Below are positions 23,720 to 26,378 of a stretch of 26,793 nt of DNA, piece after piece. A program made the position numbers and the translations under genes. Each line of letters starts with the position of its first letter. The stretch's first letter is position 1. The notes under the pieces are model-generated. The model was not told the DNA's origin. It made no database searches and saw only the letters and a list, made by a program, of their open reading frames with translations. Origin of the DNA: a virus; IMG/VR virus record IMGVR_UViG_3300030451_005683, positions 1 to 26,793 of that record. One strand, written 5' to 3'.

Positions 23720-23787
23720 GTCAAGACTCGGAACGGATCGTTCATCCCTTATGGGACGCAAAAGTTGACCGAAGGAACGGGGACTAA
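23698..23787 (+). CDS. Tiny 29-codon reading frame of unusual composition
   Basis: ATG at 23698 to TAA at 23785-23787 encodes MANWTQVSQDSERIVHPL followed by WDAKVDRRNGD. The 22-base overlap with the gene upstream, and its end before AAGGAG of the next gene, fit the close packing of the window. The segment has markedly more G+C and CG dinucleotides than its surroundings (CGG ATC GTT, GTT GAC CGA). Two Trp and an ordered-looking pattern in 29 residues are unlike random sequence. It could be a real small protein, or a structured RNA, since AACGgatCGTT and TCCCttatGGGA inverted repeats lie within it. I do not recognise a family. Confidence 0.45.
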   Translation: MANWTQVSQDSERIVHPLWDAKVDRRNGD

Positions 23788-23814
23788 AAAACCCTACTAC
23801 TAAGGAGTAACACA

Positions 23815-23940
23815 ATGGCAAAAGTCACTTACAGAGGAGTCGAGTACGACTCAAAAGAATACAACGCTAAAGTGCTTGCAGAAGCAGCAAAGCGTCAGAG
23901 ACATGAACTAATGTATCGTGGTCTCAAGGTTGCAAAATAG
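23815..23940 (+). CDS. DUF4278-like small protein, 41 aa
   Basis: A 41-residue protein starting at ATG 23815 with an ideal AAGGAG seven bases upstream (23802-23807). MAKVTYRGVEYDSKEYN matches the conserved opening of DUF4278, a family of small proteins found in cyanobacteria and their phages with the pattern YRGxxY. The second half is a basic helix (AEAAKRQRHELMYRGLKV) in which YRG recurs. The role is unknown. The stop codon is followed directly by the promoter block at 23941-23969. Confidence 0.75.
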   Translation: MAKVTYRGVEYDSKEYNAKVLAEAAKRQRHELMYRGLKVAK

Positions 23941-23969
23941 TTGCTAAAAGGTATAAATACCTATATAAT
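23941..23969 (+). promoter_or_regulatory. Overlapping sigma70 and perfect T4-type late promoter
   Basis: TTGCTA at 23941-23946 and TATAAT at 23964-23969 are separated by 17 bases. Between them lies TATAAATA (23952-23959), the complete T4 late -10 consensus, placed in a small palindrome GGTATAAATACC. So two polymerase programmes could start here about 10 bases apart: early/sigma70 near 23976 and late near 23970. Downstream come a 28-codon frame and a strong terminator at 24103-24125. Confidence 0.7.
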
Positions 23970-23992
23970 AATATAAGTATTTCTACCCATAT

Positions 23993-24079
23993 ATGACAAG
24001 GTTATTTTACCAACTCTGTTTTTTAGCACTTGTATTTTCAAGCGTTGTTTATCTACCTAGATTTGCATACGCTGTGTAA
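23993..24079 (+). CDS. 28-codon signal-peptide-like reading frame
   Basis: ATG at 23993 to TAA at 24077-24079 encodes MTRLFYQLCFLALVFSSV followed by VYLPRFAYAV. It has one basic residue, a 15-residue hydrophobic core and AYA at the end, so it resembles a free signal peptide or a one-helix membrane peptide. No Shine-Dalgarno sequence is seen before it (the leader is TTCTACCCATAT), which weakens the case for translation. It lies between the double promoter and a strong terminator, so the transcript of roughly 150 bases could also act as RNA. No known photosystem small subunit could be assigned. Confidence 0.5.
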   Translation: MTRLFYQLCFLALVFSSVVYLPRFAYAV

Positions 24080-24102
24080 TCACAACTAAATATTTTTTTC
24101 TT

Positions 24103-24125
24103 GGGGGTGTTTACACCCCTTTTTT
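24103..24125 (+). terminator. Strong intrinsic terminator
   Basis: GGGGTGT (24104-24110) and ACACCCC (24113-24119) form a 7-bp stem with minimal loop, followed by six T. It lies 24 bases beyond the 28-codon frame at 23993-24079 and closes the short promoter-rich segment. A T-run also lies before the stem, but the minus strand then lacks a T-run after it, so the terminator is for the plus strand. Confidence 0.88.
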
Positions 24126-24139
24126 ATCCGCTATAATAT

Positions 24140-24325
24140 ATGAATACACTCAAAAAAACTGCCAAACTAATTAAAGAAGCACTAAAACACAGACACCTTT
24201 ATTCCAAATCCGAAGTCTTCTACATGAAGAATGCTTTGAAGGAAACAAAGAAGGAAATCAAGGCGATCAAGTCTGTGAAGTCACTAAAAACAAATGAAAG
24301 TACAACTGATAACAGTAACTCCTGA
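24140..24325 (+). CDS. Small basic helical protein, 61 aa
   Basis: A 61-residue Lys-rich protein: MNTLKKTAKLIKEALKHRHLYS, then SEVFYMKNALKETKKEIK, then a polar tail (TNESTTDNSNS). The AKLIKEALKHRxLYSxxEVxYMK core is shared by small proteins of many T4-like cyanophages as far as I recall. There is no known function; the composition suggests nucleic-acid or protein binding. A TATAAT sits at 24132-24137, only a few bases from the ATG, so if it is a -10 element the transcript would be nearly leaderless or start inside the frame. The 3' end overlaps thyX by 32 bases. Confidence 0.7.
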   Translation: MNTLKKTAKLIKEALKHRHLYSKSEVFYMKNALKETKKEIKAIKSVKSLKTNESTTDNSNS

Positions 24326-24923
24326 TGCTGAAAAGAACATGGCATTTGTTGCCAGAGTATCTAACCCAAACAATCAGGACAACGAGAATTTTTCTGGACT
24401 GTTGAAGTATTGTATCAAGCATCAGCATTGGTCTGTGTTTGAGCAAGCACACATGACACTTGAGATTGAAACTACTCGTGCTATCGCAGCACAAATTCTA
24501 CGACACCGTAGTTTTACATTCCAAGAGTTCTCTCAACGATATGCACAGAGTCATGAACTCGGAGAGATACAACTACCAGAACTAAGAAGACAAGACGTAA
24601 AGAATAGACAGAATAGTATAGATGATCTAGATGAAAAAGTTGTTGATAAACTCAACCGTCAAATGATTACACTATTCAGTTCTGCAGAGAGTCTTTACAA
24701 ACAGATGATCGAAGAAGGAGTCGCCAAGGAGTGTGCAAGAATGGTTCTACCATTATGTACTCCAACTCGGATATATATGACAGGATCAGTTAGATCTTGG
24801 ATACATTATATCAACTTACGTTCGGCACATGGCACCCAGAAGGAGCACATGGAGATTGCTGAGTCATGTAAGGATGTATTCACAAAACAATTTCCTGTTG
24901 TATCTGAAGCACTTGAATGGTAA
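24294..24923 (+). CDS. thyX: Flavin-dependent thymidylate synthase ThyX
   Basis: A 209-residue protein with the ThyX signature: RHRSFTFQEFSQRYAQ at 70-85 (RHRx7-8S), preceded by HWSVFEQAHMTLEIETTRAIAAQILRH in part and followed by ECARMVLPLCTPTRIY and SWIHYINLRSAHGTQKE. The enzyme methylates dUMP to dTMP with methylene-tetrahydrofolate and FAD/NADPH, supplying thymidine for phage DNA. Prochlorococcus and many cyanophages use ThyX instead of ThyA. Its length is typical for the family (about 210-230). It overlaps the carbamoyltransferase C-domain gene by 7 bases. Confidence 0.96.
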   Translation: MKVQLITVTPDAEKNMAFVARVSNPNNQDNENFSGLLKYCIKHQHWSVFEQAHMTLEIETTRAIAAQILRHRSFTFQEFSQRYAQSHELGEIQLPELRRQDVKNRQNSIDDLDEKVVDKLNRQMITLFSSAESLYKQMIEEGVAKECARMVLPLCTPTRIYMTGSVRSWIHYINLRSAHGTQKEHMEIAESCKDVFTKQFPVVSEALEW

Positions 24924-25537
24924 ATTTATTTCTAGGACCAACTCATGACTTGAGTTTTTTATATAATGATCAAGAAGCACAGAGAGTAACACCACAAGAG
25001 ATTGCCACCTTCATCATGCAAGATGAAATTATAGCAGTCTACAATGGTAGATCAGAAGCAGGTCCTAGAGCACTAGGAAATAGGAGTATATTATATGACC
25101 CAAGAGATAACTGTACAAAAGAAACCATAAACAAGGTCAAGAAAAGAGAGCATTTCCGACCCTTTGCTGCTGCTGTATTGAGAGAACATGCAGAGGAATG
25201 GTTTGATATGTCTGGACTGAATAGATCCCCTACAATGTCATATGCGGTGCAGGCAAGAGAAGATAAGAAAGATTTGATACCCGGAGTTGTTCATATCGAT
25301 GATACATGTAGAGTTCAAACAGTAGAGAAAGATATACCTCATCTTTACGAAGTCATAGAAGAGTTCTACAAGTACACTAAGGTTCCTATGGTGTTGAATA
25401 CATCATTCAATCTCGCCGGTCAACCTCTTGTAGAGTCTCCACAAGATGCCATAGATACATGGAAGCAATCTGATATTCATGTACTCTGGTTCCCAGAAGC
25501 AAGACGAATGTATAAGAGTTCATCACTAGGAGATTGA
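24917..25537 (+). CDS. Carbamoyltransferase C-terminal domain as a separate protein
   Basis: A 206-residue protein equal to the C-terminal (YrdC-like) domain of NodU/CmcH carbamoyltransferases. GRSEAGPRALGNRSILYDPRD, HFRPFAAAVLRE, SYAVQARED and VPMVLNTSFNLAGQPLV are the well-known elements; this domain binds carbamoyl-phosphate/ATP and makes carbamoyl-AMP. The first domain of the enzyme, normally fused before it, is encoded by the next gene, so the order is inverted relative to the single-chain enzyme. The two proteins together should make one enzyme that carbamoylates a hydroxyl, perhaps on a sugar. They are separated by one base. Confidence 0.9.
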   Translation: MVNLFLGPTHDLSFLYNDQEAQRVTPQEIATFIMQDEIIAVYNGRSEAGPRALGNRSILYDPRDNCTKETINKVKKREHFRPFAAAVLREHAEEWFDMSGLNRSPTMSYAVQAREDKKDLIPGVVHIDDTCRVQTVEKDIPHLYEVIEEFYKYTKVPMVLNTSFNLAGQPLVESPQDAIDTWKQSDIHVLWFPEARRMYKSSSLGD

Positions 25538-25538
25538 T

Positions 25539-26378
25539 ATGAGAATTTTAGGAGTAAATTTATCTAACAATGGTTCTATATGTCTACTCAATGATGGTGA
25601 GATAGAACTATACTTAGAAGCAGAAAGACTTACGAGAAAGAAAAGAGATTATAACTGCACAAAACTATTCAACTTGGTAAAAGATGTAGATCAAATTGCT
25701 ATAAGTGATGCCTGTTGGATTCATAATAAAACGAAGAGACTTATAAACTCAAAGAATATATCTACACTCAAAAGAAAGTTTCCTAATGCTGAGTTACATG
25801 ATTTTAGAGACAGACATCATCTAACTCATGCTGCATGTGGTTTTTATAACTCTGAGTTTGAGGAGGCAGCAGTCATTGTGGTTGACTCAAGTGGTTCTAA
25901 TTATGATGAAGGAGATGAGTGTGAAACTATACTACATGTCAAAAGAGGAAGAAGATTTCATTGGAAGAGAATACATAAGAGATATAATACGGAGGATGAT
26001 ATTGGTTCAGGTCTACAGTTTGATCTAGTATCAGAGAAATGTAATTGGGGAAGACAAGAAGCAGGTAAAGTCATGGGTCTTGCTCCCTATGGACATTATG
26101 TTGAAGGGCATTACATGTCATCGAACATGGAGAACGCTGCTGCAACTGTACAAAAGGATTGGGAGGACAGAGCAGTTGAGTTGGTCAAGATAGCATCAGA
26201 GAAATGTAATAATATTGTGCTGACAGGTGGATGTTTTCTCAATGTTGTGGTAAACTATAAACTATTGAAGGAATTTCCTGATTTGAATTTCTATGTTGAC
26301 CCAATCGCTTTCGATGGAGGAACCGCTATTGGAGCAGCATATATACTTCACCACAATCCCAAAATAAAATCTTATTAA
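25539..26378 (+). CDS. Carbamoyltransferase N-terminal domain as a separate protein
   Basis: A 279-residue protein equal to the N-terminal (ASKHA/Kae1-like) domain of O-carbamoyltransferases. MRILGVNLSNNGSICLL gives the phosphate-binding first strand, RDRHHLTHAACGFYNS the His-His-x3-His metal-binding and catalytic region, VIVVDSSGSNYD and KVMGLAPYG follow, and IVLTGGCFLNVVVNYKLL with DGGTAIGAAY closes the domain. This part transfers the carbamoyl group from carbamoyl-AMP made by the other domain. It ends at the natural domain border and nothing of the C-domain follows, so this is a clean split rather than a frameshift. Confidence 0.9.
   Translation: MRILGVNLSNNGSICLLNDGEIELYLEAERLTRKKRDYNCTKLFNLVKDVDQIAISDACWIHNKTKRLINSKNISTLKRKFPNAELHDFRDRHHLTHAACGFYNSEFEEAAVIVVDSSGSNYDEGDECETILHVKRGRRFHWKRIHKRYNTEDDIGSGLQFDLVSEKCNWGRQEAGKVMGLAPYGHYVEGHYMSSNMENAAATVQKDWEDRAVELVKIASEKCNNIVLTGGCFLNVVVNYKLLKEFPDLNFYVDPIAFDGGTAIGAAYILHHNPKIKSY

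Follow-up and report, generated by a model that had tools for sequence, protein, structure and literature searches.

The DNA analysed here (the window) is a 26,793-nucleotide part of a 49.6 kb record of a marine cyanobacterial virus, which contains a thyX-like gene as well as a thioredoxin-like gene and others in a gene order common to T4-like cyanophages. In the window, a DUF4278 gene is followed by a small transcription unit and then by an operon made up of a gene coding for 61 amino acids and thyX. A glutamine (glnA) riboswitch aptamer (Rfam RF01739, 36.4 bits) is located at 23737–23783, 5′ of the DUF4278 gene, which codes for 41 amino acids (span 23737–23940). Elsewhere in the window, two adjoining frames at 24917–26375 resemble first the C-terminal and then the N-terminal part of a single Nol-like carbamoyltransferase family (phrog_1601), so that the order of the parts is reversed. 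The initial annotation had described a sigma70 promoter overlapping a late motif, a 28-codon frame lacking a ribosome site, and a terminator, and all of these are present, as listed below.

23941–23946, + strand: −35 hexamer TTGCTA, from a promoter scan; TTGCTA or TTGAC(A/T) is found 5′ of 100 of 107 related units
23951–23960, + strand: left GTA-N4-TAC site, GTATAAATAC, recognised from relatives, which includes the late motif TATAAATA at 23952–23959
23964–23969, + strand: −10 hexamer TATAAT, from the promoter scan and conserved in an alignment of relatives
23977–23986, + strand: right GTA-N4-TAC site, GTATTTCTAC, recognised from relatives, over the predicted transcript start and 5′ untranslated region
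23993–24079, + strand: frame for a 28-amino acid hydrophobic peptide, MTRLFYQLCFLALVFSSVVYLPRFAYAV, a predicted single-span membrane peptide (homologues, a pN/pS of 0.30, and hydropathy)
24103–24126, + strand: intrinsic terminator, GGGGGTGTTTACACCCCT-TTTTT, retained in relatives that lack the unit
24110–24137, + strand: promoter of the next operon, TTTACA-16-TATAAT, with its −35 within the terminator hairpin (promoter scan and relatives)

The promoter of the unit is sigma70-like, its TTGCTA and TATAAT hexamers being separated by 17 nt and matching the consensus at 10 of 12 positions. Promoter-like sites are close to expectation in the 4.8 kb region around the unit (18 found, 13.6 expected) and ATAAATA is below it in the window (5 copies where 9.8 are expected), so a sigma70 or late match alone is weak evidence. 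The −35 and −10 hexamers are conserved in relatives at a separation of 16–18 nt, the behaviour of a host sigma70-type promoter.

The 28-codon frame is not preceded by a Shine-Dalgarno sequence, and the predicted peptide is a single hydrophobic stretch that has a basic residue close to its start (best 19-residue hydropathy 1.84). A search of IMG/VR with YLPRFAYA, the end of the peptide, gave 15 stretches, 12 of which have the same small frame in similar surroundings, and further copies were recovered through the downstream 61-amino acid gene, a search blind to the peptide. In 11 distinct homologous sequences (the window and IMG/VR contigs) the frame is kept at 26–28 amino acids, with length differences of whole codons only, and the YLPRFAYA end is retained with few changes; twelve columns (F5, Q7, F10, L11, A12, F15, S17, L21, P22, A25, Y26 and A27) are invariant in ten homologues. 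Variation among the 11 sequences is concentrated at third codon positions (23 of 27, versus 15 and 11 at the other positions), and when the frame is shifted pN/pS rises from 0.30 to 1.09 and 1.51, a pattern of purifying selection such as a gene for the predicted small membrane peptide should show. Judged by these substitutions, the 28-codon frame is a real, unannotated gene; the frame is conserved and not the promoter DNA alone, a comparison for which the initial annotation had called, and the small transcription unit for a micropeptide that it proposed is borne out. No recognised group was found for the peptide: tblastn against 50,697 phage records gave no match, a variant from one relative (L012) gave only four in the same kind of search (E 5 to 8), and neither PHROGs nor Pfam yielded a family for the peptides.

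The two GTA-N4-TAC sites are part of a recurrent arrangement. In 107 distinct units the sites are 5–20 nt apart and the right one lies 2–12 nt before the ATG, with one group having its left site on top of the −10 itself (gap 5). The stretch at 23951–23989 matches intergenic DNA of P-RSM6, P-TIM68 and one single-cell phage, where a hydrophobic frame of 24–26 amino acids also follows. A search of viral sequences with the pattern AAATACCTATA-N6-18-GTATTTNTACC identified 105 places, and at 100 of them a hydrophobic frame of 22–30 amino acids follows within 14 nt, compared to 2% of random places; the five exceptions have no good −35 and look like chance matches. The element is present once per genome in each of seven records carrying it, and once in the contig of the window. 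Four matches to the pattern in a collection of 84,980 cellular genomes, none of them cyanobacterial, are taken as chance.

Many of the related units are in the hli-psbA cluster of T4-like cyanophages, directly 5′ of phrog_17067, a gene coding for 33–42 amino acids. When 113 loci were drawn by phrog_17067, independently of the promoter, a tiny frame was present in 82; 30 of these 82 have the paired promoter, and in the others the frame comes straight after the upstream gene. The paired sites accompany every relative of the window's frame that was recovered through the downstream gene. P-SSM2, P-SSM4, P-SSM7, P-HM1, P-HM2, P-TIM68 and P-RSM6 resemble the window in containing unannotated hydrophobic frames of 24–27 amino acids, theirs adjoining hli or psbA genes and phrog_17067; P-TIM68 and P-RSM6 also share the paired GTA-N4-TAC promoter, whereas in the other five the paired element is missing and the upstream gene lies directly before the frame. 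The window's unit departs from the hli-cluster frames in its location between the DUF4278 gene and thyX and in the YLPRFAYA(V) ending of its peptide, and comparison of the two peptide families gives a probability of 42% over 15 columns, which does not establish homology. We note that the P-SSM7 (L126, 2501–2578) and AG-345-L05 (L131, 2501–2581) clusters encode MKVLVQTLFLGIVSATVVYAPSVAYV and MKTFIQTSFLLIIFGVIIYVPSIAYNV, which broadly resemble the window peptide, at non-significant E values of 5 to 8.

The outer GTA and TAC are retained in both arms and the centres vary, although the GTA/TAC counts derive from searches which themselves required GTA and TAC. The fixed outer bases, the centres that vary without extra pairing, and the position of the left site over the −10 in one group suggest that the two GTA-N4-TAC sites are candidate protein sites. 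The arms are also complementary, and the best-surviving alternative is a hairpin-guarded mini-gene, in which the arms would pair in RNA reading through from DUF4278 and hide the start codon, and RNA from the internal promoter, without the left arm, would be translated. The phage T4 genes e, soc and I-TevI are hairpin-guarded late genes of this kind and, as in the unit, have complementary arms around an internal promoter and a right arm that closely precedes the start codon; the unit differs in that its promoter is of the sigma70 type, those of T4 being of the gp55 type, and in that its pairing support is mixed. The region at 23948–23992 folds with a z of −3.3, the right arm ends 2–12 nt before the ATG, no terminator separates DUF4278 from the unit, and an arm spacing varying from 5 to 20 nt is one that a loop would tolerate. 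Within the window's family (family B) the gap extends the arm helix beyond chance (mean z −2.4), but family A gaps extend it little (mean z −0.44) and some members have several mismatches. Exchanging partners between arms worsened the fit (0 of 100 swaps being as good) and yet the centres pair no better than shuffled among 20 distinct arm combinations (P 0.48), the relatedness of the sequences weakening both tests. We regard the hairpin as a possible but rather doubtful explanation, and it could act together with protein binding.

Less well placed is the proposal, made in the initial annotation, that overlapping early and late promoters provide expression in both phases, an overlap of the sort put forward for the middle genes of S-PM2 (PMC2984593). 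The octamer TATAAATA does overlap the sigma70 promoter in the window, but it is lost in most relatives: the left-site centres are mostly GAAA or AAAA, the TAAA that creates TATAAATA occurs in only 8 of the 107 units, which is not the distribution of a T4-type (gp55) late promoter, and L246 (on the same contig as L003), L247, L252, L270, L271 and L273 lack it in spite of belonging to the same family. Expression from both promoters is thus improbable. From the alignments, TATAAATA is the left half of the GTA-N4-TAC pair, and the pair persists where the late octamer does not; the sigma70 promoter, the frame and the terminator are the elements of the initial annotation that relatives conserve.

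At its right boundary the unit is not entirely its own. The terminator hairpin holds the −35 of the next promoter (TTTACA in the window, TTGACA in relatives) with TATAAT 16–17 nt further on, so the T-run doubles as promoter spacer, and by this layout the terminator is shared with the next promoter and not private. Of the 220 strong terminators that the examined loci contain, 55 are built this way (32 distinct hairpin sequences, some nested); TTGACA is the commonest hexamer at that spacing, in 20 of 150 hairpin cores when a −10 with at least 5 of 6 matches is required, and the reversed hexamer is found in 0 of 150 at the same spacing. Hairpins with the next promoter's −35 (TTGACA, or TTTACA in the window) in the loop or 3′ arm are seen at 24103–24137 and in loci L028, L067, L112, L234, L238, L257, L294 and others; one search of a literature library, made for cyanophages, found no description of terminator hairpins carrying the −35 of the next promoter.

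Comparison at the thyX locus separates these parts further. In L257, L258, L261, L263, L265 and L266 the DUF4278 gene leads directly to the terminator and the unit is absent; in L245–L255 and L270–L274 the promoter and frame lie between them. With empty sites among its relatives the unit behaves as a presence/absence cassette, and because promoter and frame are absent together and the terminator is retained, the first two appear to be gained or lost jointly and independently of the third. The description of the unit as self-contained therefore holds for promoter and frame, but not for the terminator, which stays without the unit and carries the next −35. L262, L270, L271, L273 and L275 have a different tiny membrane frame (about 30 amino acids, ...LIYVEIKLFKLRR-like) after DUF4278 at this locus, in some cases alongside the window's unit and in others without it.

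A short frame just 5′ of a terminator, with its last eight residues among the best conserved, also invites comparison to a TnaC-like leader-peptide attenuator governing the 61-amino acid gene and thyX. However, the terminator itself holds a separate promoter for the next operon, both persist in relatives without the frame, and the hli-cluster look-alikes overlap the next gene, with no room for a terminator; attenuation is very improbable. A small non-coding RNA some 150 nt long, its frame incidental, is just as hard to credit, since despite its own promoter and terminator and a whole-transcript fold of z −3.2, that fold owes much to the terminator (without it, leader and frame do little better than shuffled sequences, z −1.7) and substitutions follow codons, so that the small RNA acting as such, also offered in the initial annotation, is not upheld. 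A type I toxin-antitoxin arrangement with antisense RNA over the frame is not supported by a consensus scan, which revealed no minus-strand promoter-like site at 24000–24490.

We therefore favour, with reasonable though not full confidence, the interpretation that the unit is a cyanophage mini-gene for a single-span membrane peptide, driven by host sigma70 and controlled by an operator. Host RNA polymerase would read it from the host-type promoter, with the two GTA-N4-TAC palindromes around the −10 serving a dimeric DNA-binding protein that would switch the unit. A start 7 nt past the −10, at about 23976, would give a 5′ untranslated region of about 17 nt, without a Shine-Dalgarno sequence, leading into the 28-codon frame, and an mRNA of about 150 nt ending at the intrinsic terminator whose hairpin supplies the −35 for the 61-amino acid gene and thyX. 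One candidate binder of the paired sites, the cyanophage MarR regulator, was set aside; the passages on it in PMC9692554 give no consensus for comparison.

The peptide would form one helix in the host membrane, and its hydrophobicity and the hli-psbA neighbourhood of the look-alikes point to a host membrane complex as its probable target. Ycf12/Psb30 and PsaI are likewise tiny single-span membrane peptides, but the matches are non-significant (Ycf12, E 0.11 and 4.2; PsaI, E 0.1), as is the one match, to Ycf12, in a profile search of solved structures, and on this evidence the peptide is not assigned to the photosystem small subunits. Yfr6 and the Downstream-peptide units of marine cyanobacteria are short transcripts with one conserved short frame (PMC2864571). 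The unit shares that organisation, but its own leader has no riboswitch, the nearby glutamine riboswitch belonging to the DUF4278 gene.

Annotation usually passes over phage genes of fewer than about 40 codons, and here a single type of mini-gene recurs in about 100 contigs of ocean cyanophages, linked to a stereotyped promoter and often with hli and psbA genes as neighbours. More speculatively still than the hairpin, ocean cyanophages may maintain a dedicated cassette, about once per genome, in which a sigma70 −10 with two GTA-N4-TAC sites around it serves essentially only membrane peptides of 24–28 residues, which would adjust the working of a host membrane complex in infected cells. To our knowledge cyanophages lack MotA and AsiA, and the regulator of the paired sites could be part of their missing middle-mode switch. 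Through this recurrence two questions become testable: the identity of the protein controlling early or middle promoters in cyanophages, and the effects of these phages on host membranes beyond the supply of D1 and Hli proteins.
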